Below are positions 2,153-39,967 of a stretch of DNA of 64,000 nucleotides, in pieces. A program made the position numbers and the translations under genes. The DNA comes from a virus. The notes below the pieces were generated by a model. That model made no database searches. It saw only the letters and a list, made by a program, of their open reading frames with translations, and was not told where the DNA came from. The stretch's first letter is position 1. Each line of letters starts with the position of its first letter. The DNA lies in IMG/VR virus record IMGVR_UViG_3300032309_001546, positions 62,001 to 126,000 of that record; one strand, given 5' to 3'.

Positions 2153-3301
2153 TTATTCGTAGTCTCTTAATGCTTTCGCATATGGAAACCTAGGTACCCC
2201 ATCAGGGGTTAGATTGAAATATTGAATAGTTACCTGCTTACCTATAAGTGAATCCTTGTTCTCCCATAGTCTTACAAGATACTCATGAGGGCCCATAATA
2301 TTACTATTAAAGTGGCGACCATCTGACATGACCAGGGTAAATGCCCCAGCCATGCCAGACTTGTTCCCCTCGCCCTCAACAACACCAACAATTTCATATT
2401 CGCTATCGATAAACTTCTTAAGCTTTAGAAGATTCTTACTTCGCTTATTTTCATAAGCAGTATTTCTTCTAAGCATAAGACCCTCATATCCTTCCTTAAG
2501 ATATGCAGTAAGCTTAGCCTGGACTTCTTCCTGGCTGTTTACAGTGTGCGTTTCAACTGTTGTGACATATTTCATGTCGATCAGTTTCATACCAAACGTA
2601 TTGTATTGCTTAAAAAACTTAAGACGATCAATGAAGTTACCATCTACCATGTTGTCGTAGCACCAGAACTGAATATACTTCTTGCTTTCAGCAAGTTGCG
2701 CATCATCAATCTTCTGGCGCTTAACAAGTTCTACAATCCTATTAAAGTTATCTTTAAATTCATGATTGTAAAGTTCACCATCTAGCTGGACATCCGGGCA
2801 CTTCTCAAAGAATGACTCAAGAGCTGAGTTAATATGAGGGCATGAAACAATCTTTTCATTGTTTCTAGTCCACATACCATCCTTATTGATCCTGCATCGA
2901 ATGCCATCGAGCTTAGGTTGAGTATAAGCGGGCCAAGTAATGTCATCTGCATAGTCATCGTAATTCTTAGCGAGCATTACCTGATAGGGTAAAGCCTCAT
3001 CTACATTATCGACAGTCTCAGTATAACCCTTCTTGATCTGTTTATCCCACTTAGCTTTTGCTTCCTTTGCAGCTTGGTCAGCTGCAGTAGTCGCATTCTT
3101 CTTGCCAACATTCATTGGCTCACAAACAGTAGGCTTACTGGTAGTCTTAACACCATCAATATGCCCACTGGTTGTATAAAATGAACCATTACCTAAAACG
3201 GCAATGGTCCATTCCTCAATCTTATTGCCATTTACTTTCTTATAAAGTGTAGGTAAAAAGTAATTAGTTACAACATCATCAACAGTTTCTAGCTCTGCCA
3301 T
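2153..3301 (-). CDS. ATP-dependent DNA ligase with N-terminal WGR-like region
   Basis: Seals DNA nicks through a lysine-AMP intermediate. The nucleotidyltransferase motif I is QPKLDGIRC with the adenylated lysine at K130. Further ligase motifs follow: the ELYNHEFKDNF region, EGLMLRR (motif IV-like) and LLKLKKF (motif V-like). Residues 15-95 resemble a WGR-type N-terminal domain, as in some phage ligases. The chosen ATG at 3301 has GGGAGG about 9 nt upstream; an upstream in-frame ATG at 3319 lacks this. The start overlaps the end of the PurA-family gene by 13 nt, so the two are co-translated. Length 382 aa. Confidence 0.88.
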   Translation of the reverse strand: MAELETVDDVVTNYFLPTLYKKVNGNKIEEWTIAVLGNGSFYTTSGHIDGVKTTSKPTVCEPMNVGKKNATTAADQAAKEAKAKWDKQIKKGYTETVDNVDEALPYQVMLAKNYDDYADDITWPAYTQPKLDGIRCRINKDGMWTRNNEKIVSCPHINSALESFFEKCPDVQLDGELYNHEFKDNFNRIVELVKRQKIDDAQLAESKKYIQFWCYDNMVDGNFIDRLKFFKQYNTFGMKLIDMKYVTTVETHTVNSQEEVQAKLTAYLKEGYEGLMLRRNTAYENKRSKNLLKLKKFIDSEYEIVGVVEGEGNKSGMAGAFTLVMSDGRHFNSNIMGPHEYLVRLWENKDSLIGKQVTIQYFNLTPDGVPRFPYAKALRDYE

Positions 3302-4350
3302 GCAAAGTAGTCCTCCCAATTAACAAATTCTGGATGATCAGAGAAAATAACATCTTCCTCAAGAAGATTAGAGCATTCGCCCTCGATGATCTCTGCAATA
3401 GTAGTCTGCATTTCTTTGAGTGTCTTGCATGTAACAAGCTCGTCGCGAAAGCGGAACTTAAATGGGTTACCTTCTTCTATCTTAGTTAGAATGTCACCTT
3501 TATTAAGTACAACGCAGGTGACGCCAGACAGGCGAATCGCAGCAATCATCTTATCAAGATTAAGATAATTAACAATTCTTTGACGTCCGGTTGTAATACC
3601 TTGTTCCTTGCCAATTCTGCCAATCTCAGCAAGAACTGGATCCTGCATTAAACTAACAGGAAACATAGGATCTGCCCCACTCTTAGTGTCGTACATCTTA
3701 CCAATGCCAATAATGCGAGTAATATCCATAGGCGAGAAGCCAAGTGAACAAGCATTATAAGGCAAAGTAGAACTACTAGTAACGTAAGGATAAGATCCAT
3801 GATCGATGTCTAGCCAGACACTCTGCGCGCCTTCTGCAAGGATAGAACCAAAAAGTTTCTCATCCCAGATCCACTTGGGATCAAGAACTTCAGCTGCACG
3901 AATTCCTTTACGCAACATCTTATCTGAGTAGCACGGAGCAATACCTTGCCCTGTAGTCCCAAGATGCGAAAGATAATTAGTGTCATAGCTAATGTGATCT
4001 TGAGTAATTACATGAGCCTTAGGTGAAACCTTAACAAGACTCGTATCAAATCTATTAACTTCTAGATAAGCAATCTCTGCCATGAACTTGCTAATATTGA
4101 TTACACAAGCAGGGCCGATAATGCTAGGAACACCGTGGAATACACCACTAGGGATAAGATGAGTCTTGTACTGCTTACCATCCAAGTAAACAGTATGACC
4201 TGCATTAGGGCCGCCGTTAAAGCGACAGACAAAGTCATAGTGTTGGTAATTAACCAATGAACTAACGACCTTGCCCTTGCCCTCGTCACCCCAAGCAAGC
4301 CCAACAACAACATCTACTGTATCAATCTCACGAGAATTAGCAAACTGCAT
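3289..4350 (-). CDS. purA-like: Adenylosuccinate synthetase family protein (PurA/PurZ-like), short form
   Basis: GTP-dependent ligase of the PurA family. Canonical members join aspartate to IMP to make adenylosuccinate. The PurZ branch uses dGMP to make the precursor of 2-aminoadenine. The P-loop-like motif WGDEGKGK has D22 and the NAGHT motif has H52, the two catalytic residues of PurA. EGAQSVWLDID and SYPYVTSSS match the family. PurZ enzymes known from S-2L and phiVC8 replace the first aspartate by Gly or Ser; here it is kept, which favours PurA or a PurA-like PurZ. At 353 aa it is far shorter than bacterial PurA (about 430 aa) and near archaeal PurA and PurZ. AAGGAA precedes the ATG. Confidence 0.88.
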   Translation of the reverse strand: MQFANSREIDTVDVVVGLAWGDEGKGKVVSSLVNYQHYDFVCRFNGGPNAGHTVYLDGKQYKTHLIPSGVFHGVPSIIGPACVINISKFMAEIAYLEVNRFDTSLVKVSPKAHVITQDHISYDTNYLSHLGTTGQGIAPCYSDKMLRKGIRAAEVLDPKWIWDEKLFGSILAEGAQSVWLDIDHGSYPYVTSSSTLPYNACSLGFSPMDITRIIGIGKMYDTKSGADPMFPVSLMQDPVLAEIGRIGKEQGITTGRQRIVNYLNLDKMIAAIRLSGVTCVVLNKGDILTKIEEGNPFKFRFRDELVTCKTLKEMQTTIAEIIEGECSNLLEEDVIFSDHPEFVNWEDYFAWQS

Positions 4351-4358
4351 AAATTTCC

Positions 4359-5417
4359 TTAAAAGGCATAGCGAACTTCACACCAGGGAATAAATTTCTT
4401 AATACCAGCAGAGAAAGCTTTAACATTGTCACCTTTAAGTCCATACTGATAGCATAGGACATCAGGCTTATTAGCTTTAGTTTGCTGGATTTCAGGAGTC
4501 CAAAGAAATTCTTCACCCTTAGGATTCCATTGCATGTTAATATCATGCAGATCAGTACTGTGAGTTAGAAAAATAACCTCAGATTTCATCTGAAGCTTGG
4601 CTCTGTCTGTTAGCTTACTATCCATAAGTTGCCATAGCTCAATCCAATCTTTCTTCCATTGCTTATCTCCATACATAATGACAGGAGAAAAGTTAGCATG
4701 AACCTCATAGCCTGCCTCAACAAGTTCGTTCATTGCATCAATACGATCTTCGATTGGAGAAGTTCTAATGTCAACATATTTAGACACTGCCTGAGGCATC
4801 AAACTGTAACGAATTCTAGTTCTGCTCTTAGGATTAAACTTTAAGAACGGATCAATATTAACAGTTTTAGTTGCAAAAGTCAACTTACCATGCTTAGTAC
4901 TCTTGATAGCTTCCATTAGTACAAATGGATTGTCACTAATCATTGCATCAATGCTGACGTCATTGTTATTGCCAATGTCATAGATCCAATATTCAGGATC
5001 ACACTGATTAGATTCGGGCTTAGGACCAAGCTCATTGCAGTGATCTACAATGCTTTCAGCAACCTTCTCACTATTAAGAAATACTGTCAAAGGATTACTG
5101 CCGCCCTTGCGCCGAGCAACATAGCAATACTGGCATGCACTTAAGCAGCCATTACTATGAGATGGAGCAATGAAGTCAGAGCTTCTACCGTTGACTGTAC
5201 TTGCAAGAATCTTAAGCTTACCAAGAACCAAGATGTGCTTCTTAGCCTTAATCCAATCAACAGGATCCATATCTACTAGATCTGGAATTTTCCAATGACT
5301 AGCAACTTTTTTAACCTGAGCATCAGGAAATCTATTTAGAATAGAATCAAGTCTGCTTTGCTCAGACTGTGAATAGTTATTATTCTCTACATAGATAGTC
5401 TTAAAGTCCAACTTCAA
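4359..5417 (-). CDS. splB-like: Spore photoproduct lyase-like radical SAM protein
   Basis: Radical SAM protein resembling spore photoproduct lyase, which directly reverses a UV-induced thymine dimer. The iron-sulphur motif is C91-x3-C95-x2-C98 within SNGCLSACQYCYVARR, the pattern typical of SPL. The C-terminal PWCEVRYAF also resembles the SPL family end. At 352 aa it matches the usual 340-350 aa. In a phage the lesion need not be the spore photoproduct, so the substrate is open. It is 8 nt upstream of the PurA-family gene in the same operon, and a UvdE-type nuclease is encoded 2.5 kb away. Confidence 0.82.
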   Translation of the reverse strand: MKLDFKTIYVENNNYSQSEQSRLDSILNRFPDAQVKKVASHWKIPDLVDMDPVDWIKAKKHILVLGKLKILASTVNGRSSDFIAPSHSNGCLSACQYCYVARRKGGSNPLTVFLNSEKVAESIVDHCNELGPKPESNQCDPEYWIYDIGNNNDVSIDAMISDNPFVLMEAIKSTKHGKLTFATKTVNIDPFLKFNPKSRTRIRYSLMPQAVSKYVDIRTSPIEDRIDAMNELVEAGYEVHANFSPVIMYGDKQWKKDWIELWQLMDSKLTDRAKLQMKSEVIFLTHSTDLHDINMQWNPKGEEFLWTPEIQQTKANKPDVLCYQYGLKGDNVKAFSAGIKKFIPWCEVRYAF

Positions 5418-7897: not shown

Positions 7898-9067
7898 TTA
7901 CGCCACAAGTTCTTTATACTTGTCACGCAATGCAAAATAAGCTAAGTCTTTAGCCTTAGCCTCGACCTCAAGATCGAGATCAAAAGGTGCATAAAGTAAA
8001 TTGTCAGAAATCTCATTTACATAATCATGATGAGATCTGTCATATTCATGATCTCGACCTTTTGAAATATGCAGTAATGGTTTGTATGCTTTAGAGCGCC
8101 ACCAATGAAAATCAAATGAACTTACAGGCTTAATAGACATTTGATAATTAGCATTATTAATTTCTGAAGGATGATCAATTACAAACTGAATATGCTTACT
8201 ATAATTAGTACGAGTTTTCCATGTTTCATGGCATGCTTCAAGCGCTTCAGTTAATGGCTCGCCTTCGTTATTAATTTTCCAATGATGCACATCTAGAGTG
8301 ATGGGCATACCAGGAAAATGTTTAATAAGTTCTTGCCATGTCCAGCAACCCTTGTCCTCGGTCTCAAAAACAATACGCTTAAAAGCATTAGGATAGTGCT
8401 TTAGTACCTGCAAAAGCATGACATTAACATTATTTGCAGTTATAGCTGGATTATCAGCGCCTCTACTAACGTGAATGTTAAGTGGACAAGAGTAATCAGC
8501 TGGGGCACCAATCCAGTCAAGAAACATTGCATGGGCAATAAGTTCTGCTCTAGATGAGTTCTGCACTACAGGTGATCCACCAAGACTAACAAACTCTGGA
8601 GGATGCATAGTCAAGCGACCACCTCCATCCAGATATTTCTGAACAGTCTTTCTTAGTTGAAGCTCAAGGCCATTAAAAGCTCCATCAAATCTACCTTTGA
8701 TCATAGAGTTAAAAACTTTACATGGTCTAATCCAATAATTAAAATTTTTATAGGTAAATTCTAGACTCTGTCCATAACTCCAGAATGGAAATAAATTACT
8801 GCTAATGCGATACAACTTGATATTGTTCTGAATGTTATAGTCTAGAACAGCAATCAATTCCTTAATATTATGAACATAGATATTAAAGAGAACTTTAGCG
8901 CCAATCTCCATATGGTCATAGTGCGCATACCAGTCATCAAGATGACGCCAACTGCCGTCAAATTGAACTGGCTCAAAGTTAAGAGTCTTGATCTTCTTAA
9001 GAGTAATAGTTTTAAAGTTAGTTTTATGTGTTCCTAGGCTATTACAACAGTAACCAAGTGTAATCAT
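7898..9067 (-). CDS. uvsE-like: UV damage endonuclease (UvdE/UvsE family)
   Basis: TIM-barrel endonuclease that nicks DNA 5' of UV photoproducts, starting excision repair without photolyase or UvrABC. Family features seen in order: the N-terminal LGYCCNSLGT strand, YRISSNLFPF (conserved R-x-SS-x-x-P), LTMHPPEFVSLG (metal-binding His), IHVSRGA in place of the usual HxGG, VFETEDKG (metal Glu) and LDVHHWK (metal Asp and His). At 389 aa it is longer than bacterial UvsE (about 300 aa). The ATG overlaps the upstream gene's stop and has AAGGAA before it. Confidence 0.85.
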   Translation of the reverse strand: MITLGYCCNSLGTHKTNFKTITLKKIKTLNFEPVQFDGSWRHLDDWYAHYDHMEIGAKVLFNIYVHNIKELIAVLDYNIQNNIKLYRISSNLFPFWSYGQSLEFTYKNFNYWIRPCKVFNSMIKGRFDGAFNGLELQLRKTVQKYLDGGGRLTMHPPEFVSLGGSPVVQNSSRAELIAHAMFLDWIGAPADYSCPLNIHVSRGADNPAITANNVNVMLLQVLKHYPNAFKRIVFETEDKGCWTWQELIKHFPGMPITLDVHHWKINNEGEPLTEALEACHETWKTRTNYSKHIQFVIDHPSEINNANYQMSIKPVSSFDFHWWRSKAYKPLLHISKGRDHEYDRSHHDYVNEISDNLLYAPFDLDLEVEAKAKDLAYFALRDKYKELVA

Positions 9068-9677: not shown

Positions 9678-9698
9678 AAAATAGCAAACAAAATAAAG

Positions 9699-9779
9699 TG
9701 GACCGGGTGGGGGTCGAACCCACATAGCTTGCGCGTTCCGTTATGAGCGAAATTCCGTAACCAATTCGGAGGCCAGTCC
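9699..9779 (-). tRNA. tRNA with CAT anticodon, probably tRNA-Ile2
   Basis: 81-nt cloverleaf: acceptor GGACTGG/CCGGTCC, D stem TCCG/CGGA, anticodon loop CTCATAA, T arm GTGGG-TTCGACC-CCCAC. The anticodon CAU would mean Met or, after lysidine modification, Ile reading AUA. The C4-G69 pair is that of E. coli tRNA-Ile2, whereas the elongator Met tRNA has U4-A69. A TilS-like gene lies only 59 nt upstream. The variable region is 12 nt, longer than the usual 5, and can form a tiny GC-GCAA-GC hairpin. Confidence 0.85.
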
Positions 9780-9838: not shown

Positions 9839-10513
9839 CTAAATGTATTCAAATAGTACTTTATTATTTGGTGGATAAAGAATCTTTTCCACTACAGTAT
9901 ATAAACCAGCATTTACGAATAGTGCGTGAGGCACAATGTTCTTCCTAATGTAAGATCTCATGTTTGAGCCATCAAAATTAGTTGGATCAACATAATAGCA
10001 AAGATTATTTTCTTTGCAATACATTAGTAGAGATTCTTTTTTGTTTCTAATGAAAGGTCTAACTACAAAGACATCTGAATCTTCTTTTAAACGACGACTG
10101 ACTGGCATAGTATAAGCTTTGCCATTCAACGTATTAAAAAGGTATGTTTCAACAGCATCATCTAAGTGATGAGCTGTAATAATTTTACAAGCGCTAAAAC
10201 TCGCTGCTACTTGACCAAAAAGTCTGTATCTCTCGTCGCGCCAGTACTCTTCTTGACTGGAAGCCATTGGTCTATCTGGCTTGATAGCCAAGGACTTAAA
10301 CTGCCAAGAGTGAGCCTTACAATAATCTCTAACAATCTTTTCAGAAAGATCAGAAGTTACTGTGCCATGATGGATAAATACCACCATACCATGCTGACTA
10401 TGCTTACCCTTTGTTAAGAAGTGCAAGCAAGCCATACTATCCGGCCCACCTGAGCAGGCAAAAATAAATGGTTTGTCTTTTGAGAGTAATCTTTTGTCGT
10501 ACTTAAGATACAT
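9839..10513 (-). CDS. tilS-like: tRNA(Ile)-lysidine synthetase-like protein (TilS N-domain)
   Basis: PP-loop ATPase that in bacteria attaches lysine to C34 of tRNA-Ile(CAU), so that it reads AUA. The PP-loop is SGGPDS at residues 21-26. ITAHHLDDAVETYLFN near 112-126 is the TilS-specific TAHHxDDxxET motif, and a later RPFI-x7-LLMYCKEN segment also matches. At 224 aa only the catalytic domain is present; the C-terminal domains of the about 430-aa enzyme are absent, as in short TilS forms. The gene lies directly upstream of a CAU tRNA on the same strand. Other PP-loop tRNA enzymes (TtcA, for example) lack this exact motif. Confidence 0.85.
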   Translation of the reverse strand: MYLKYDKRLLSKDKPFIFACSGGPDSMACLHFLTKGKHSQHGMVVFIHHGTVTSDLSEKIVRDYCKAHSWQFKSLAIKPDRPMASSQEEYWRDERYRLFGQVAASFSACKIITAHHLDDAVETYLFNTLNGKAYTMPVSRRLKEDSDVFVVRPFIRNKKESLLMYCKENNLCYYVDPTNFDGSNMRSYIRKNIVPHALFVNAGLYTVVEKILYPPNNKVLFEYI

Positions 10514-30889: not shown

Positions 30890-31450
30890 CGGGACACCAT
30901 TATTTGTGCTCCCCTATACTAGGCTGTTTCTCACCTAGTAATTCAATCATATGGGAATCGAACCCATAACTAGATATCCATAATGGTATATCTAGCGTCA
31001 CCAGACTAATCAAAAGGGTACGGGTCGTCTTATTTGCTAGCGTGCGAACCCCTTCCCAGTCGTTACTAGCGAACTAGTAACCACCCCATGTCTATATAAC
31101 TACTAGGGCAGGGGTCCCTAATAATTAGCCCATGTTTACTCTCATTACTCGCGGCAGGGCTCCGCCAGTAATAAACCCTATGTTTATCTCGTTACTAGAA
31201 GCAAGGGACTAACTAGTAACCACCCCGTGTTCATCTTGTCCATTAGTGGCTGAGGCCCACTAACAGCCAGCCTATCTTTATAGCCAGGTTTGCAACCCTG
31301 ACACCCCTAGGTTTCCATGAACGGTAGGCGCGTTCATGTGTTTCTAGAAGGATTAGAAGGTGACGTCTTGCAGTACGAACAATAGGGTTTACATCCCCTA
31401 CTATTCGCAATGTAACCTGCGTGACGCCGTAAACTTGTGAGCATTTTATA
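30890..31450 (-). ncRNA. Candidate structured non-coding RNA segment with a hairpin array
   Basis: About 560 nt without an ORF. Five hairpins recur about every 40-50 nt (31062-31081, 31100-31127, 31144-31172, 31191-31220, 31241-31265). Stem bases are similar to TTACTAG/CTAGTAA, with differing tops, and are joined by spacers close to ACATGGGGTGG. A T-arm-like hairpin (ATGGG-TTCGATT-CCCAT) lies near 30951-30968. The segment ends at an intrinsic terminator. No clear promoter cassette precedes it, so it could be a 3' extension of the upstream transcript. Confidence 0.5.
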
Positions 31451-31470
31451 GACCTACTCAGGTCTGAGGA

Positions 31471-31677
31471 TTACACGAAGAAGCGACGAGCCACGTGAAC
31501 GGCCTCAATGAGAGACTCAGAACCAGTGCTGGCATCTTCCTCGTATTCCTCGAAATCGACAAACTCTTCAGGACTGTCCGGGCGATGGCTCCAGTCGATG
31601 CGGTCAATGACCTCATCTTCGCTACCGACAGGAATGTTGAAGCAATCCTCAAAAGACACGAACTCAACAGGGACCAT
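31471..31677 (-). CDS. Small acidic protein, 68 aa
   Basis: Begins MVPVEFVSFEDCFNIP, rich in Glu and Asp (EEFVDFEEYEEDAS). CGGAG stands 7 nt before the ATG. Unknown. Confidence 0.65.
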   Translation of the reverse strand: MVPVEFVSFEDCFNIPVGSEDEVIDRIDWSHRPDSPEEFVDFEEYEEDASTGSESLIEAVHVARRFFV

Positions 31678-31724
31678 GACAGACTCCGTTTGTTACGAAG
31701 ACACACATAATGTCTTCACCATGA

Positions 31725-31745
31725 AAGGCGAGCGCAGCGAGCCTA
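31725..31745. repeat. AGCGCAGCG-core hairpin
   Basis: GGC-GAGCGCAGCGA-GCC stem-loop; same core as the hairpins at 32195 and 32893-33080. Confidence 0.55.
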
Positions 31746-31763
31746 ATACTGTGTAGCGGAGTA

Positions 31764-31800
31764 AAAATAAAACCCCAACACATCCTACTGTGCTGGGGTT
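31764..31800 (-). terminator. Strong intrinsic terminator of the 31.8-32.24 kb non-coding unit
   Basis: AACCCCAGCACAG and TGTGTTGGGGTT pair around a short loop, followed by TTATTTTTAC on the minus strand. Confidence 0.82.
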
Positions 31801-32240
31801 CTATCTCTCTATCTCGCATTAGGACACTAGCAGGGTCACTACTAGTTACGAGTCTATCAGCCCAAGAGGAGGCTTATCCAAATCGTAATGCGGAATTGGC
31901 AACCGCACCTGTCTACTTACACTAGAACCCGACAGGCCCTTTCTAGTGCTTTGATACCCGACAACTACTGGTGTGGTATCTACTGGAGTCTTGAGCCCAG
32001 TCTACTCTCCTCCTGGGTACGCCTAACTAGGCTCACCATGCTCCCCCGAGGTTGGGAACATGGGTACGGGGCGCGTAACTGCCCCTTCCCAGTTTTTATG
32101 TTAAGCGGACTGGGAACCGCCCCTGTCTGATACATACCAGAAGCCGACAGGCCTCATCTGGTACGAGTAGCGGTAGCTACTATCCGCCATGTGAGGCGAG
32201 CGCAGCGAGCCTAATAGAATCCTATTACCTGGACTCTGTC
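31771..32240 (-). ncRNA. Candidate structured RNA with two linked double-pseudoknot units
   Basis: About 470 nt with no ORF, its own promoter cassette (32242-32272) and its own strong terminator. Unit 1 (31878-31948) and unit 2 (32086-32163) each have four interleaved helices: arm X, GCGG, arm X', CCGC, then CCTGTC, arm Y, GACAGG, arm Y'. X differs between units (CCAAAT/ATTGG against TTCCCAGT/ACTGGGAA). So does Y (CACTAGAA/TTCTAGTG against TACCAGA/TCTGGTA). Pairing is kept in both. Chained pseudoknots recall tmRNA, but no tRNA-like domain is present here. Confidence 0.65.
32190..32214. repeat. AGCGCAGCG-core hairpin
   Basis: GGC-GAGCGCAGCGA-GCC stem-loop near the 5' end of the candidate non-coding RNA; same core as the array at 32893-33080. 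Confidence 0.55.
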
Positions 32241-32241
32241 T

Positions 32242-32272
32242 GGCCATACTAGTAATGCAACTATTTTTGGCC
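32242..32272 (-). promoter_or_regulatory. Promoter cassette driving the 31.8-32.24 kb non-coding unit
   Basis: Minus strand reads GGCCAAAAATAGT, then TATGGCC after a short gap: the AAATAGT and TATGG elements of the repeated cassette. Confidence 0.5.
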
Positions 32273-32320
32273 GACCCTAGTAAAGGGGTTTCCCCCCGAG
32301 TAGGGGGGTTTCGTGGGGGT

Positions 32321-32360
32321 AAAAAAGTTCCCCTCCCACACTGTAAGTGTGAGAGGGGGG
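32321..32360 (-). terminator. Intrinsic terminator after the 32365-32844 gene
   Basis: CCCCTCTCACACT and AGTGTGGGAGGGG arms, then AACTTTTTTACC on the minus strand, 5 nt after the stop codon. Confidence 0.85.
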
Positions 32361-32364
32361 TTCT

Positions 32365-32844
32365 CTAGTCCCAGTCGCCAGCAACAGGGGCGGACTTGCG
32401 GGCGGCAGGCTTGGCGGCGGGCTTGGCAGGCCTCGCGGGAGCCTTGGCAGCGGGCTTGGCGGGTGCCTTGGCGGGCTCCTCGACAACACCGTGACGACGC
32501 ATAAGCGCCTTCTCGGTGGCCAAGAGACGAATCTGGGCCTTGCTGTACACGATGAGCCTGGTGGCGTTGTGCCAGGCCTTGTCATCGCTCTGCCAGGACT
32601 CCGTCTCGAGGCCTGCCCCGTCGATGTGCACGAAATTGTACCCGCTCTCGTCCGCCTTTGCGACGAACCAGTTCACGAGCTCCTGGCCGACCAGACGCAC
32701 CCGCGTCCAGTTGGTGTCCTCCGTCCCGTAGGACGAACTGACCGAGAAGTCCGCGTACTTTCCGCTGGCCCCGATCACGGGCTGCTTGCCCATGTAGCCG
32801 AAGCCCGAGACCTTGAGGGTGAGAAACTTGCGATTCTGTTCCAT
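32365..32844 (-). CDS. Probable second single-strand-binding-like protein, 159 aa
   Basis: Start at 32844, with GGAGAACGTC upstream. Residues 1-110 read like an OB-fold with alternating strands (KFLTLKVSGFGYM, WTRVRLVGQELVNWF, ATRLIVYSKAQIRLL). A Lys/Ala/Pro-rich tail of about 35 residues follows, ending GDWD. The layout resembles SSB proteins, but the fit is weaker than for the SSB at 27.4 kb. The basic tail is unlike the usual acidic SSB tip apart from the last residues. It has its own terminator and a leader holding a hairpin array. Confidence 0.6.
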   Translation of the reverse strand: MEQNRKFLTLKVSGFGYMGKQPVIGASGKYADFSVSSSYGTEDTNWTRVRLVGQELVNWFVAKADESGYNFVHIDGAGLETESWQSDDKAWHNATRLIVYSKAQIRLLATEKALMRRHGVVEEPAKAPAKPAAKAPARPAKPAAKPAARKSAPVAGDWD

Positions 32845-33169: not shown

Positions 33170-36100
33170 CTACTTCTTACCCGTGATACGGTTAAGACGT
33201 GCCGCGACACCGGCCTTCTTCTCCGAGGGAGCAGGGGCGGGCTTCTCTTCAGCCTCAACCTCGGCGTCGAAGTCATTGGGATCGATGAAGATAATCTTCA
33301 GGCCCGACTCTTCAGCGTAATCAACCGCATTCTTTGTACCGCCAGTGCTGCCATCCCAGACAGCAATGACGATATCGGCGCAGTCAATCATCTGCATGTT
33401 ACGGCGCTGCATGCAGAACTTGTCTTCGCCATAGGTCTTCTCGCTGACCTGGACGACTTCGCTGGCAACTTCCAGCATGTTCCAGTAGCGCTGCTTGGCT
33501 TCGCGGGGCCACATAGCCTCCTGCTCTACACAGGGGATCATGACCGTGAACGGGATACCCATCTCGTGCGCAATCTCTGCCGCATCCTGGTCAACGCCAA
33601 GGGCACCGCCAGTGATTAGCCAGAGCTTCTCACCGTGCTTGGCAAGACCACGCTCAAGCTGAGCCGCAATCTGTTCACGTACCCAGATGCGCTTCTCCGC
33701 ATTGGGATTGTATCCGCCGATCTTGTCGGGACGGTGACCAGTGAAGGCCACAAAGAAGTACTCCGTCTCTTCGGCTTCAACTTCCTCAGTTGCAGCCGCG
33801 ATCTTAACCTTGAAGGGATCGACATACAGCATACCGGGCTTGTAGTCTGCATACCCTTCGGGGCGGTTGTTGTGGGTAGACTTCGCGCCCGCAGGAGGAT
33901 TCGGCAGAGTGCTGACATCCCGCTTCTGGATGTAAAGCATTACTCCATCAAGTCGGGCTTCGTCATACCAGGCTTGAGGGCCCTTCTGGCGGATCTGCCA
34001 CTCGCTAAGGTCAACGCTATCAGCATCAAACTCGATGTAGGGGCCATGGTCCCCGTACACAATGCGTGCGTACTCGGTTGCAATAATGCTTCCATTCGGG
34101 GTTTGGATTTCCCCATCAAAGCCCTGACCATCCTCACGGAGTCCGAGTTTGGCTTCGACTTCACGCTTGTCGGCTTCGCGATTAGGCAAACCAAGCGTTG
34201 TGGACTTGAAGTCTTCGGACTCTTCGTCTTCGGCAACAGGGCACACAGCGGCCATCGAGGGGCCATTGTCTTCGTATCTGGCTTCGCAGGTCGGGCAGAG
34301 ACCGGCCACGAAATCCCCCTCGACTTTGCAGTCCTCACAGGCATTTGTGCAAATGCGGCAGCCAGCGCCCTCGCACACTTCGCACACAGATGTGGGGATG
34401 GACTCTTCTGCTTCTTCCTCAGTCTTGTTGGCAAGGCGCAGCAGGACGTCAGCGTGGCAGGCTTCGGGTGCACAATGGCAAATCAACGACTTGCCAGTAA
34501 GTTCTCCGAGGCTATCCATGAGATTAACCTGTGCCTTCACCCAAGCCTCGTACTTGGCAATGACTTCCTCACGGTTGCCATCGCGGCCAAGGACGAAGGG
34601 ATTACCCCACTTGCTGGGACGGCCAACGTATACCGCACCGGAAGGAATATCCTTATCTGCCCGGTTGTAGACGGCAGGTGCAGCGTTAGCAACGACCGGA
34701 GCGCTAGCCTCAGTGGCTTCAGACTCTTCGTCTTCGCTGTCCACCCAGCAATCGGTGTAATCGAAGCGGTCGCTGCTCTTGGCCTTCTCGTCTTCCTCAA
34801 AGACCTCGGACTCTTCCTCTTCGTCACCGTACTGGCTAGGGTCGAAGTCCGGGTTCTCTTCACCGAAGTCCGGCTCTTCTGCATCTTCCGGCTCGGGCAT
34901 CTCGTCAGCGTCCTCCGAGATGTCATACTCGTGCGAGGGCTCATCCTCGTAACCCTCCTCGTACGTATCCTCTTCAGGCTCATCACCAGAGAAGACATCG
35001 TTGAGATCCTCTTCGCCTCCACCCTGAGGACCGTTGTCGTCGCCAAGGAAGGTGAGGATCAGGAAGCTGTTCAAGCCCTGAGGCGCGAACCTGGTGCCAA
35101 CAGCCACGGTGCGACCCATGACAGTTTTACCATTCTCGTCCTTGGTCTTGATGTCGGGGTTCCACTCGGTAACCCACTCACGCTCCACAAGCTCTGCCTT
35201 CACCGCAGTACCCGGGAAGATCTCGATCAAGCGACGCAGGAAACCGAATGAGTCAGCAGCTTCAAGCGTGCTCATAGCGTTGAAGCTGTCGAGCTCAGCC
35301 TGCGCTTCTGCGATCTTTGTCTCGCTGGGCTTCTTGGCCTTCTTCAAGTCAGCCAGTGCGTGACGAAGCTCCTCACCCTTGTTCTTCCGACGAAGCTCGA
35401 TCTGACGACCGATTTCGCTGACAGTCGCAAGCTGACCCTCAAAGCCATTGGCCTCTCGACCATCGCTGATGCGCACGCCGGGCAGGCTGAGAAGACCATC
35501 GATCCCCCAGCCAAGCTTCTCGCCGTCACCGCCGAAGCCACCGCAGTTCTTCTCACCACGGATGTAGGCGAGGAGAGCTTCTGCGTCCTGGCGTACCGTC
35601 GGGGTACCACCCTTGCCCAAGTAGAGAGCAAGCTGACGGGCTTCACCGAGGCTGTTATCGTCGAGGCCGTTGATTGCGGCAATGCCATTGCTGGACATCC
35701 AGTCCGTGAGGTATTCCCAGGGACCGCCGACGAAGAACGCAGTGGTAGCGATACCGCCATTCGCCTTAAGGTTGCCATTGGCATCCTCGGTGATGGTGAT
35801 CTCAAGAGCCTGTGGCTTCGCATCCTTGCCGACCTTCTTGGCCTTCTCAGCAGGCTGCAGGTAACGATTGGCAAAGGCAAGCCAGGCCATCTTCACAGCA
35901 GCGTCGCGGTCTTCAGCCTCAAAGTTCTTGAGGATGTACGACTCGATCTGGGAGTCTACGAGTTCAATCGCCGCTCTGATGGGCATCGCCGAGTAGGCCA
36001 GCCAGAGTGCCTTCTTGGCACGCGAGATGTTGCCGCCAGCCAGCATTGCACTGACGACCCTGTAACGACGGTTGCTCTCGTGGCCTGCAGGAGCCATGAT

Positions 36101-39100
36101 CTTGTGGATCAGTTCCTGGTTGGTCCAAGCCTGGAGGTTCTTGAAGCTACCGGGGCTCCAGTTCCAGTAGAGCCAGGCCTCGGTCTCTTCGCCAGGGGCC
36201 TCGTCTTCCGTGCGACCAAGCCAAGCAGTGAGCGTCTGGTGCAGGACGTTCTGGCGACCAGCTTCCCACTGAGCATTGGCGAGGGATTCGACCTCATCGA
36301 TGCACCACTGGCGGTAGTCAGCCCAGAGGGTGTAGACCTTCGAGCTAAGCTCACCAGCGACGAGGTGGGTAACGATCTCGCCTTCTTCGTTGCGGACGGG
36401 AGCGGTCACCTTCGTGCCATTCTCGAACAGGGGCTGCATGTCTTCACCGAGGACAGCAACACGCTTGGCCGGGTCGACGAACAAGCTCTTCGCACCAAGG
36501 CTGAGCTTCCGCAGAACGGCAGGCACGAATGCCCAACCTTCACGGCCCTTGCCTTCGGTGACAAGGTCAAGCCAGACCTGGTAGACCTGCACCATCCGGT
36601 AGGATGCCCAGGCTTCAGCGTAACCCGTCATCTTGACCGCTGCGTCAACGATGTCGGACAACGTCACGCCGAAGAGGAGCGTCTCGGAGATCTCCTCACG
36701 AAGCTCCTCGAGGAAGGTAGGCAGCTTCACCCAGCCAACAGCCAGGGACATGCCGTAGATCTTCGCGTTAGCGACGATACCAATCGCCTTCTGGAAGACG
36801 TTCTCCTCCATGTTCATCACCGACTCGTACAAGCTCTCGTGGCTCATACCAGCAGTGGTGGCTTCGACCGGCGCTTCGGGCTCCGTAACGGCGGTAATGA
36901 CGAAGTTCTCCGTCTTCACCTTGAAAGCCTGACCGAGGATCGTGGCCGCGTTGAGGCGGGTCCACAGGCTCTTGTTCTCCGGGATACCGGCGACCATCTT
37001 AGCACGGAGCGCGTTCTTCTGTGCACGCTTCTCGGCGTTGAGCTTCGCCTTATCAGCAAGAGCGGTACGCCAGGCCAGACCCTTCACGATGAGCATGGCA
37101 AGCTTACCACGCGCAGTGGGGCAGCGGTCATCATAGTCCATGCCTTCGTTTGCCTGGAGCAGGAGGACTACCGTGTCTCCGCTCGCCGTGGTGAACATGA
37201 TCACCATACGGCCGCTTACGCCGATGATGAAGATATTCAGGCTTTCCGGCAGCTCACGGATCTCCGCAACCGTGCCCGACGTTTCGCCGGTGGGGTTACG
37301 GAAGAAGATTGCCAGGTTGGGCGCGCAGTTGTTCTTCGCCCAGCGAGCAAAGTTGGTGCAGTAGACAATAAGACGACCATCAGCCGTCTTCGTCTCCAGC
37401 TCCATGGTCTGCTTCGCCTTCGTAGCAACCTCCTCAGAGTGCTGCCCTTCAGCAATCCAAGCCGCATGCAGCATCGGCCAGAGGACCGGGATGGGGTAGG
37501 TTGCCCACAAGTCGCTTCCCTCCTCGGTAACAGGAGCGATCTTCATCGAGCCAGGCTCAATGTTCTTGCTCAAGGTGCCAACCAGCTGCTGTGCCAGCAT
37601 GCGGAAGGGGAGAACAGGGATTCGCATCGCGCCGAGGAGCTTCGCAAGAACGCTGTTGCGGTTGTCCTCGACCTTGGCCTCTTCGTCGCCAGCAACGAAG
37701 TCGTCAGCATCCTCGTCCAGACCCTTCAGGAAGTCGGGGAGACGCTTCTTGGCGTAGGCGATGTAGCCAGCAATGAGCTGGTAGAACTCCTTCGAGTTGA
37801 CCTCAGCTCCGAGAAGCATAAGGATCGACTGAAGCGACATAACCGCCTTCTCCTTCGTGAGCGCCGCAGTGCCGGGGATCCAGCAAAGGGCATAGTCGTT
37901 CTGGGTAGCGGACCACTCGGTCTTCACCTCACTGGCAATGATGCAGACGCCTTCAGGGAAGTACCGAGCCGGAAGCGGGATGCACATACCCTTGATCAGA
38001 CCTTCGCTGGTCAAGATACGAGCCACCATCGGAGCGGTCAGACCCATGGCCTTCGCCACGTCGGCACGGACAAGCACAAGGCCGTCGAAGAACTTGACCA
38101 GTGCAGCGGCAATCTTGCCCAGGTCCAGGACCTTACCCGGCAGGACAACGCGGGCAGTAACCCGCGAGATCCAGTACGAGTCAGCATACTTAGCAATGCG
38201 GCCCAGGGTCTTACCCTTGAACCGCAGAGCCGCCATGCTGACCTTCTTGGCTTCGGGCGTGCAGTAGAGGGTCATACCCTTCTGCAGAACCCGAATGGTG
38301 ACAAGGCCAAGCTTCTTAGCGTTGGCCACGGCATCGGTATCGTCGTCAGCGACAACGAGACCTTCGAGGAGTCCAGGGCTATCGTCAGCCGCAGGACTAG
38401 TAGCACACGCCTCCTCAAGGAAGGCTGCGAACGTGCCGGGAGTGCATACCCGGACTTTCTTGTTACCCATCTTGTTCTCCTTAGGGGTGGGTGCCCCGGT
38501 GTGCTTCGTCGAGGCCAGGATGATTCCCGGCTTAACGGAAGCTTTGGTGTCGTTGTTGGTGCTGGTGGCTTCACCGTTTAGGTCATTGTTGACCTCGGCA
38601 AAGATATCCTCGCAAGCCGCCATAAGACGAGCTGCGATGGCTGAGATGGCGTCGCTGGGGATGCCGGCATAGAGGCGGTCATAGCCACCTCTCATGGTCA
38701 ACTCGGTACCGTCCGCCTGGCAGACATTGCAGAATTGGCCCTTTGAGCCAAATCCTGCAACACCGCAACCGACGCAGGTCTCGGGCCCGCAGTCGGCTTC
38801 GCTGGGCTTAGCCTTAACCATGGCCTCGAGCTTCGTCGCAAGGGCATTGCCCACTACAACGAACAGGATACCGACGATGCCGACGACAAACAGAAAGCCG
38901 GGTCCTGCAAGGAACTCGGCCGGGCTCTTAGCCCAAGCGGCTTCGACCGCCTGGCTGAACGTGGGTGCTGCAGCGGCGAGTACGGCGATAAGCGGGGAGC
39001 TGGCCTTCACCGCATTGCGGCGTTGGCGGCTCAGTTCCCGCTTTCTGGTGCGCTTCTGGGCATCCTCAGTCGCCGTCATGGCGAAGAAGACGCTTGCGGT

Positions 39101-39967
39101 ATCCTGTGCGGACTTGCCCGTGTTACCACAGACAGCGGCTTCGATGCGCTTGGCAAGGGTGGTCTTGATGACCACAATCTTAGCGCCGATAGCTACGGGC
39201 TTCACAGGAGTAACCTGCTTGGCCTTTGCCGCCGCGATGTGCGCCGAGAAGGTCATGGCCTTCGTGACGCGGGGGAATTTCGCGACGGGCTTCGCAGCAG
39301 CCTTAGCGACGGGCTTCGCAACGGGCTTGGAGGCAGCCTTGGGAGCAGGCTTTACAGCGGGCTCAGCGACGGCTTCCACTGCCACTTCCGTGACAGCAGC
39401 AACCTCGATGGCAGGGGCAGGGGCAGGCTTCACAGGAGCCTTAGCGACAGGCTTGGCAATTGCCTTCGGAGCGGGCTTGGCGACAGCCTTGGGGATATGG
39501 ACCCCCTTCGACCGCAGCCAGCGGTCAAGGCGGATAGTGGTCCAGCAGTTACGCCGGGCCAAACGGGCTGCATGGCGGGTAAGCGCCTGCAGCCTGAGCG
39601 ACGCCGCCGACTGGGCAGCAACAGTCCGCCGAAGCGGAAGGACGATGGCGTATACGTTCGCCAGAAAACGGGCCACGAAGGCCAAGATGACACGGACCAT
39701 GGGATGGTCCTTACCCTCCGCGAGGAGGATTGGGGTGGTCGGCTTCACCGAATTGGCAAAGCGGACCACGAGGGAAGCGGGGATGCGGGGAGCGATGCGG
39801 GTTGCAGCCTCCGTGACCAGCACGAAGCTGGTGACGAAGAAGCTGACTAGGGCAGCGGCCTGCTGCGAAAGGGTGGGGGCCAGCTGGGCCTCCACGGTCA
39901 GCGCCGTTGCGAAAACGGCGAACACCACAGCCACGATGGCGGTGATGGCGAGTTGGATCCGAGACAT
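33170..39967 (-). CDS. Giant multidomain protein, 2265 aa
   Basis: AGGAGGTAACTC precedes the ATG. Order of parts: hydrophobic segments at about 5-27, 38-58, 88-110 and 368-392; a Lys/Ala/Pro-rich repeat at about 160-260; and a zinc ribbon (CVGC-x10-CNVC) near 410-428. A long central region of unknown fold follows. An acidic Glu/Asp linker runs to about 1765. A DUF4326-type domain (YVGRPSKWGNPF, CHCAPEACHAD) covers about 1768-1855, followed by Cys-rich knuckles (CEVC, CRIC, CEDC, CPTC) at about 1858-1895. A YpsA/DprA-like SLOG domain (FTGHRP, ITGGALGVDQDAAE) occupies about 2065-2245. No single function follows from this. A second strong ribosome site lies at codon 500. Codon use is GC-rich compared with the structural genes. 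Confidence 0.85.
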   Translation of the reverse strand: MSRIQLAITAIVAVVFAVFATALTVEAQLAPTLSQQAAALVSFFVTSFVLVTEAATRIAPRIPASLVVRFANSVKPTTPILLAEGKDHPMVRVILAFVARFLANVYAIVLPLRRTVAAQSAASLRLQALTRHAARLARRNCWTTIRLDRWLRSKGVHIPKAVAKPAPKAIAKPVAKAPVKPAPAPAIEVAAVTEVAVEAVAEPAVKPAPKAASKPVAKPVAKAAAKPVAKFPRVTKAMTFSAHIAAAKAKQVTPVKPVAIGAKIVVIKTTLAKRIEAAVCGNTGKSAQDTASVFFAMTATEDAQKRTRKRELSRQRRNAVKASSPLIAVLAAAAPTFSQAVEAAWAKSPAEFLAGPGFLFVVGIVGILFVVVGNALATKLEAMVKAKPSEADCGPETCVGCGVAGFGSKGQFCNVCQADGTELTMRGGYDRLYAGIPSDAISAIAARLMAACEDIFAEVNNDLNGEATSTNNDTKASVKPGIILASTKHTGAPTPKENKMGNKKVRVCTPGTFAAFLEEACATSPAADDSPGLLEGLVVADDDTDAVANAKKLGLVTIRVLQKGMTLYCTPEAKKVSMAALRFKGKTLGRIAKYADSYWISRVTARVVLPGKVLDLGKIAAALVKFFDGLVLVRADVAKAMGLTAPMVARILTSEGLIKGMCIPLPARYFPEGVCIIASEVKTEWSATQNDYALCWIPGTAALTKEKAVMSLQSILMLLGAEVNSKEFYQLIAGYIAYAKKRLPDFLKGLDEDADDFVAGDEEAKVEDNRNSVLAKLLGAMRIPVLPFRMLAQQLVGTLSKNIEPGSMKIAPVTEEGSDLWATYPIPVLWPMLHAAWIAEGQHSEEVATKAKQTMELETKTADGRLIVYCTNFARWAKNNCAPNLAIFFRNPTGETSGTVAEIRELPESLNIFIIGVSGRMVIMFTTASGDTVVLLLQANEGMDYDDRCPTARGKLAMLIVKGLAWRTALADKAKLNAEKRAQKNALRAKMVAGIPENKSLWTRLNAATILGQAFKVKTENFVITAVTEPEAPVEATTAGMSHESLYESVMNMEENVFQKAIGIVANAKIYGMSLAVGWVKLPTFLEELREEISETLLFGVTLSDIVDAAVKMTGYAEAWASYRMVQVYQVWLDLVTEGKGREGWAFVPAVLRKLSLGAKSLFVDPAKRVAVLGEDMQPLFENGTKVTAPVRNEEGEIVTHLVAGELSSKVYTLWADYRQWCIDEVESLANAQWEAGRQNVLHQTLTAWLGRTEDEAPGEETEAWLYWNWSPGSFKNLQAWTNQELIHKIMAPAGHESNRRYRVVSAMLAGGNISRAKKALWLAYSAMPIRAAIELVDSQIESYILKNFEAEDRDAAVKMAWLAFANRYLQPAEKAKKVGKDAKPQALEITITEDANGNLKANGGIATTAFFVGGPWEYLTDWMSSNGIAAINGLDDNSLGEARQLALYLGKGGTPTVRQDAEALLAYIRGEKNCGGFGGDGEKLGWGIDGLLSLPGVRISDGREANGFEGQLATVSEIGRQIELRRKNKGEELRHALADLKKAKKPSETKIAEAQAELDSFNAMSTLEAADSFGFLRRLIEIFPGTAVKAELVEREWVTEWNPDIKTKDENGKTVMGRTVAVGTRFAPQGLNSFLILTFLGDDNGPQGGGEEDLNDVFSGDEPEEDTYEEGYEDEPSHEYDISEDADEMPEPEDAEEPDFGEENPDFDPSQYGDEEEESEVFEEDEKAKSSDRFDYTDCWVDSEDEESEATEASAPVVANAAPAVYNRADKDIPSGAVYVGRPSKWGNPFVLGRDGNREEVIAKYEAWVKAQVNLMDSLGELTGKSLICHCAPEACHADVLLRLANKTEEEAEESIPTSVCEVCEGAGCRICTNACEDCKVEGDFVAGLCPTCEARYEDNGPSMAAVCPVAEDEESEDFKSTTLGLPNREADKREVEAKLGLREDGQGFDGEIQTPNGSIIATEYARIVYGDHGPYIEFDADSVDLSEWQIRQKGPQAWYDEARLDGVMLYIQKRDVSTLPNPPAGAKSTHNNRPEGYADYKPGMLYVDPFKVKIAAATEEVEAEETEYFFVAFTGHRPDKIGGYNPNAEKRIWVREQIAAQLERGLAKHGEKLWLITGGALGVDQDAAEIAHEMGIPFTVMIPCVEQEAMWPREAKQRYWNMLEVASEVVQVSEKTYGEDKFCMQRRNMQMIDCADIVIAVWDGSTGGTKNAVDYAEESGLKIIFIDPNDFDAEVEAEEKPAPAPSEKKAGVAARLNRITGKK
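38470..38485 (-). promoter_or_regulatory. Internal ribosome-binding site at codon 500 of the giant gene
   Basis: AAGGAGAACAAG directly before an in-frame ATG at 38470 (MGNKKVRVCT). Spacing is ideal, so a 1766-aa shorter product is likely made. Confidence 0.6.

Follow-up and report, generated by a model that had tools for sequence, protein, structure and literature searches.

A double-pseudoknot unit predicted in several small-RNA genes of an uncultured phage clade

The locus and its phage

The DNA analysed here (the window, a stretch of 64 kb) comes from a phage record of 145.9 kb, of which it covers positions 62001-126000. The terminase of this phage has only about 30% identity to its best match among the INPHARED isolate phages, whereas 19 IMG/VR loci carry a terminase 81-100% identical to it, which places the phage in an uncultured clade. 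Its source may perhaps have been freshwater. The minus strand of the window carries genes for adenylosuccinate synthetase, a spore photoproduct lyase-like protein and the UV-repair protein UvdE (3289-4350, 4359-5417 and 7898-9067), together with a 2265-aa frame (33170-39967) that has low-complexity stretches and, towards its C-terminal end, a few matches to domains of phage families. A tRNA with a CAT anticodon (9698-9779, minus strand) lies beside a gene for a TilS-kind PP-loop ATPase (9839-10513, minus strand), and the two may perhaps be a tRNA-Ile2 and the lysidine synthetase that goes with it, both supplied by the phage.

The subject of this work is a segment of the minus strand, the orientation of the genes that flank it, running from about 32211 to about 31763. 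No convincing gene is seen within the segment itself, which looks like a noncoding RNA gene, predicted to give an untranslated and intricately folded product (Table 1). From 5' to 3' it is laid out as a leader hairpin, the P0 hairpin, unit A, several hairpins, unit B, a hexaloop hairpin, a bipartite hairpin and a terminator. The initial annotation had credited the segment with a promoter-like cassette of its own and a strong terminator, and a leader and a strong terminator stem do stand at its two ends; a search of the minus strand upstream of it gave no match to a sigma-70-like promoter. The same leader hairpin reappears ahead of the next gene in the window, and leader-type elements stand 5' of small protein genes and RNA cassettes throughout the phage group, with eight copies of the GGCTCCTKCGTCGCC-type element inside 3 kb of G004.

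With pseudoknots left out, the 456-nt RNA folds with a z score of -6.9 relative to shuffles, its folding energy lying well below theirs. The segment has no gathering-level match in Rfam 15, the sub-threshold matches being taken as chance. Its description as a gene-free, structured RNA stands. RNA homologs were not found by blastn in isolate phage genomes.

Table 1. Features of the RNA segment, of its relatives and of neighbouring RNA cassettes. Positions are those of the window unless a locus is named; in unit rows the position of each strand is given in brackets.
Feature	Position	Strand	Remarks
Leader hairpin GGCTCGCTGCGCTCGCC	32195-32211	-	5' side of predicted transcription unit
P0 hairpin AGTAGC-TACC-GCTACT	32166-32181	-	GGTGGC/GCTACC in relatives, one two-sided change
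Unit A core	32088-32164	-	Homologs in L004, L041, L003, L024
Unit A PK1	TACCAGA (32157-32163)/TCTGGTA (32135-32141); CCTGTC (32146-32151)/GACAGG (32122-32127)	-	
Unit A PK2	GGCGG (32117-32121)/CCGCT (32104-32108); CCCAGT (32109-32114)/ACTGGG (32088-32093)	-	
GGGGC/GCCCC hairpin	32068-32085	-	Opens RNA2-derived part; GAGGT/ACCTC in L004, two two-sided changes
CATGTTCCC/GGGGAGCATG hairpin, 9 bp	32037-32062	-	Relative to L004, one two-sided and two wobble changes
GATACC/GGTATC hairpin	31953-31980	-	Immediately 5' of unit B; relative to L004, one two-sided change
Unit B core	31878-31949	-	Homolog in L004; detected by unit A model R1
Unit B PK1	CACTAGAA (31941-31948)/TTCTAGTG (31920-31927); CCTGTC (31931-31936)/GACAGG (31908-31913)	-	
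Unit B PK2	TGCGG (31903-31907)/CCGCA (31889-31893); CCAA (31896-31899)/TTGG (31878-31881)	-	
CCTCTT hexaloop hairpin	31859-31874	-	RNA1 of L004 and L041 has this loop too, with another stem
Intrinsic terminator, long stem then TTTTATTTTT	31763-31802	-	RNA1 and RNA2 of L004 end in near-identical ones
RNA1 (unit A) cassette, 260 nt	L004 6297-6556		Own leader and terminator
RNA2 (unit B) cassette, 352 nt	L004 6602-6953		Own leader and terminator
RNA4, about 500 nt	30937-31430	-	Outside the original finding; about 0.3 kb onward, past the 68-aa gene
RNA4 tandem pseudoknot repeats, four	31081-31268	-	In the window
RNA4 3' tRNA-like end	30937-31014	-	Cloverleaf-like fold, canonical T arm
RNA3 cassette	L004 7014-7172; L041 8280-8440		Loop TCTCCGT can pair with downstream ACGGGGA
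RNA0, leader-to-terminator cassette without clear gene	L041 7734-7915		In G004 and G001, immediately 5' of RNA1

Two double-pseudoknot units

Each unit consists of two H-type pseudoknots, PK1 then PK2, set back to back with zero linker. PK1 combines a Y arm of 7-9 bp with a 6-bp inner helix, CCTGTC/GACAGG, and PK2 combines a 5-bp stem 1, KGCGG/CCGCN, with an X arm of 4-6 bp. The units are about 75 nt long (A 77 nt, B 72 nt) and start 215 nt apart. Both of the minus-strand units that had been proposed could be located, with the proposed helix order, identical in the two; the GCGG/CCGC helix, given before as 4 bp, proved to be 1 bp longer, reading GGCGG/CCGCY in unit A and TGCGG/CCGCA in unit B. 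Unit B has an X arm of just 4 bp, with which nested alternative pairings compete, and the prediction of PK2 in this unit is weak.

A descriptor of the full chain, in which PK1 (S1 of at least 7 bp, S2 of 6 bp) abuts a PK2 of 4/5 bp, matched unit A and nothing else on both strands of the window, and gave no match in Markov sequence (10 x 64 kb, 640 kb in all). The PK1 part of the descriptor by itself matched both units and nine further places in the window, compared with 19 matches in a one-strand null of 640 kb; the nine extra matches are scattered in the window and are of the kind that chance also gives.

Covariation was assessed in a hand alignment of five unit sequences (A and B of the window, A and B of L004, and A of L041), in which 122 of the 130 cells in paired positions are paired. 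Two-sided compatible changes occur in seven pairs: the Y arm has four of these, PK2 stem 1 has one (G-U/G-C to U-A) and the X arm has two, whereas sliding the partners by 1-3 columns leaves 0-1 such pairs. Column shuffles attained seven two-sided pairs in 28 of 2000 cases and the observed number of paired cells in none of 2000. Four of the seven covarying pairs are intact in every sequence; the other three (in the X arm the outermost pair, in the Y arm the innermost two) are mismatched in at least one. The internal covariation of the X and Y arms that had been noted at the outset is thus real, and homologous loci, to which the initial annotation had looked for a loss of pairing in these arms, retain it. 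The number of independent changes is small, since unit A is represented by three lineages and unit B by two. The inner helix of PK1 is invariant across units and so is neither supported nor contradicted by covariation, which means that PK1 rests on complementarity and repetition. Outside the units, the RNA2-derived part of the segment differs from L004 by four two-sided changes spread over three hairpins. No reading frame of at least 20 aa is kept whole across the window, L004 and L041, in line with the original remark that no tag frame is present.

Separate cassettes and a probable fusion

Relatives of the segment were located by exact patterns and by blastn. G003/L024 is identical to the window over the RNA segment, G002/L004 also has both units, and G004/L041 and G001/L003 have unit A alone. 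Matches in L045 and L179 were rejected as chance matches within other phage sequence. Bacterial homologs were likewise rejected: 59 pattern matches in bacterial genome contigs compare with about 48 estimated by chance, and model R1, made from unit A only, scored none of them convincingly. A supposed kinship with 23S/5S rRNA (GGGGCGGTT, which is P-loop-like, and CCGAAGTTAAG in L041) is put down to chance because L057, scanned permissively against Rfam, had no match to rRNA.

In L004 the two units belong to two small cassettes, RNA1 and RNA2, each with a GCTCCTTCGTCGC leader at its start and a near-identical terminator at its end, and in L041 an RNA1 cassette is followed not by RNA2 but by another cassette. 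RNA1 and RNA2 have a common domain order, and in their 3' halves both have the CCTCTT hexaloop, another hairpin of larger size, GATAGAGA and the terminator; in addition, R1 detects unit B with an E value of about 1e-8. By these sequence likenesses RNA1 and RNA2 are paralogs. The window RNA corresponds to RNA1 as far as the X arm of unit A and from there on to RNA2, starting at the first hairpin of the latter and running through the terminator. Given that the units sit in independent cassettes in L004, and unit A alone in L041 and L003, the chained RNA of about 450 nt in the window looks like a lineage-specific deletion fusion of two paralogous small-RNA genes. A single deletion that took away the 3' part of RNA1 together with the RNA2 promoter would account for it. 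The reverse event, an insertion in L004, would be less simple because L041 too has a complete RNA1.

The linkage of the two units, a central element of the initial annotation, therefore holds in the window and fails as a general feature. What the comparison points to as the true finding is the double-pseudoknot unit, spread over several predicted small-RNA genes, with the linkage a local fusion. As judged from these comparisons, this phage RNA family is new, absent from Rfam and lineage-restricted. The noncoding RNAs of phages are poorly charted, and the locus offers a clean family outside Rfam that combines paralogy and covariation with a probable natural fusion.

Comparison with known RNAs and possible function

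The chained pseudoknots had first been likened to tmRNA. The window RNA does share with tmRNA (RF00023 and relatives) the presence of several H-type pseudoknots in an RNA of a few hundred nucleotides, but it has no tRNA-like domain or tag frame and a different domain order. ARAGORN and Rfam found tRNAs only in the window, and a permissive Rfam scan of 31400-32700 returned no tmRNA, so the parallel does not hold. As the initial annotation had itself observed, 31763-32211 gives no match to a tRNA-like domain; at the 3' end of the RNA stands an intrinsic terminator.

The most likely reading, to which we give a probability of roughly 0.45, is that of a trans-acting, probably protein-binding phage RNA that would serve host takeover or counter-defence. 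It is favoured by the stand-alone cassettes among small genes, their patchy presence, and a fold that is kept without a kept reading frame; the accessory distribution of RNA1 and RNA2 is compatible with many functions. The RNA would be transcribed early in infection from its own gene, end-to-end stacking of its two H-type pseudoknots would make each unit a compact domain, and the rigid RNA would bind a protein in trans, as a decoy, scaffold or inhibitor.

The hexaloop suggests a different use, that of a regulatory small RNA acting by base pairing. The pseudoknots would protect the RNA, and an exposed loop, notably CCTCTT, would pair with host or phage mRNAs at their ribosome-binding sites (AAGAGG/AGGAGG). 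We regard this as unlikely, though next in probability. In every lineage RNA1 and RNA2 have the very same loop, on stems that differ (ACGTCC/GGACGT, AGCCT/AGGCT), and purine runs resembling Shine-Dalgarno sequences, such as GGAGG, lie ahead of phage start codons in the region. Six bases nevertheless make a short loop, CCTC loops are common, and simple pairing would leave the conserved double pseudoknot superfluous. C-rich seed loops are found in staphylococcal-type small RNAs, which the window RNA resembles in being stand-alone and terminator-ended with an anti-Shine-Dalgarno-like hexaloop; it differs from them in that the double-pseudoknot domain dominates and target pairing is a candidate feature.

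Type III antitoxin RNAs consist of nearly identical units of about 34-48 nt, repeated in tandem. Like ToxI, AntiQ and CptI, the window RNA has repeated pseudoknot units in one noncoding RNA, and the units could in principle imitate such an antitoxin and neutralise a ToxN-type RNase of the host. A phage precedent exists in the pseudo-ToxI carried by escape mutants of phage TE (PMC5086642), and the neighbouring RNA4 contains a real tandem pseudoknot array of 1-4 units. The window units are, however, twice as long as the repeats of these antitoxins, each with two stacked pseudoknots, and they are not in tandem; the Rfam scan returned no antitoxin family, and the units resemble the RNA4 repeats weakly (see below). 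We therefore think antitoxin mimicry very unlikely. The ToxN-like family PF13958 had no match in six phage records, the control genomes being likewise without a match, and Pfam and PADLOC searches of the neighbouring proteins gave nothing significant.

About equally improbable is an RNA-only assembly in the manner of GOLLD, ROOL and OLE, in which the RNA would fold by itself and multimerise, with the units as contacts. GOLLD occurs in phages too. The window RNA has the ornate, multi-pseudoknotted character of these noncoding RNAs, which assemble as homo-oligomeric complexes (PMC12286853), but it is smaller, relatives have its units in separate small cassettes (RNA1 measures merely 260 nt, and G004 has a single unit copy), and none of the GOLLD, ROOL and OLE families of Rfam matches it in sequence or structure. 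That the segment acts in cis on the downstream 68-aa gene (31471-31677), as a riboswitch-like leader or an attenuator, which the position of the terminator immediately 5' of this same-strand gene might suggest, is hardly likely either, because a fresh leader element intervenes between terminator and gene, the window, L004 and L041 differ in what comes after the terminator (other RNA cassettes or genes), and RNA of a length reaching about 450 nt lies ahead of the terminator.

Phage use of modular pseudoknot RNAs can now be tested with defined constructs.

RNA4 and other neighbouring RNAs

RNA4 is more widely conserved than units A and B, occurring in at least five lineages, some of them without RNA1 or RNA2, with homologous loci in L092, L093, L095 and L097. 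Its 5' portion has a further pseudoknot, and the number of its tandem H-type pseudoknot repeats, each about 47 nt long, ranges from one to four across lineages; the pseudoknot stem of the repeats covaries (AGCCC/GGGCT and ACCCC/GGGGT). RNA4 often lies directly 5' of a gene's ribosome-binding site. It has neither an Rfam family nor an ARAGORN call, and its identification as a tmRNA was rejected on these negative results. With its tandem pseudoknots and tRNA-like end, RNA4 may outrank the original finding in importance. Homology between its repeats and units A and B was considered and is not claimed: R1 gives E values of 0.01-0.03, and the reciprocal model R2 misses both units. In the RNA4 of L095 (G001), the anticodon-arm position is enlarged by more than 100 nt, with a second T-arm-like hairpin (GAAGGGTTCAATCCCCTTTTTC).

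RNA0 contains two H-type pseudoknots (TACTGG/CCAGTA with ATCCGT/ACGGAT; CCTTGTC/GACAAGG). RNA0 and RNA3 appear to have the topology of units A and B without detectable sequence likeness, and homology is not claimed for them. The phage group might possess a toolkit of pseudoknot-module RNAs, RNA0-RNA3 with RNA4 as its core, which duplicate, fuse and change their number of modules and act as joint effectors against host translation or defence; we hold this to be unlikely. The closing stem of RNA3, GTTGA/TCAAC, becomes GTTGA/TTGGC in L041, where wobble pairs preserve the pairing. At L004 9823-9985, a leader is followed by a noncoding stretch that has no tRNA call and carries a terminal acceptor-plus-T-arm minihelix (CTTCCT...ACTGGTTCGAATCCAGT...AGGAAG).
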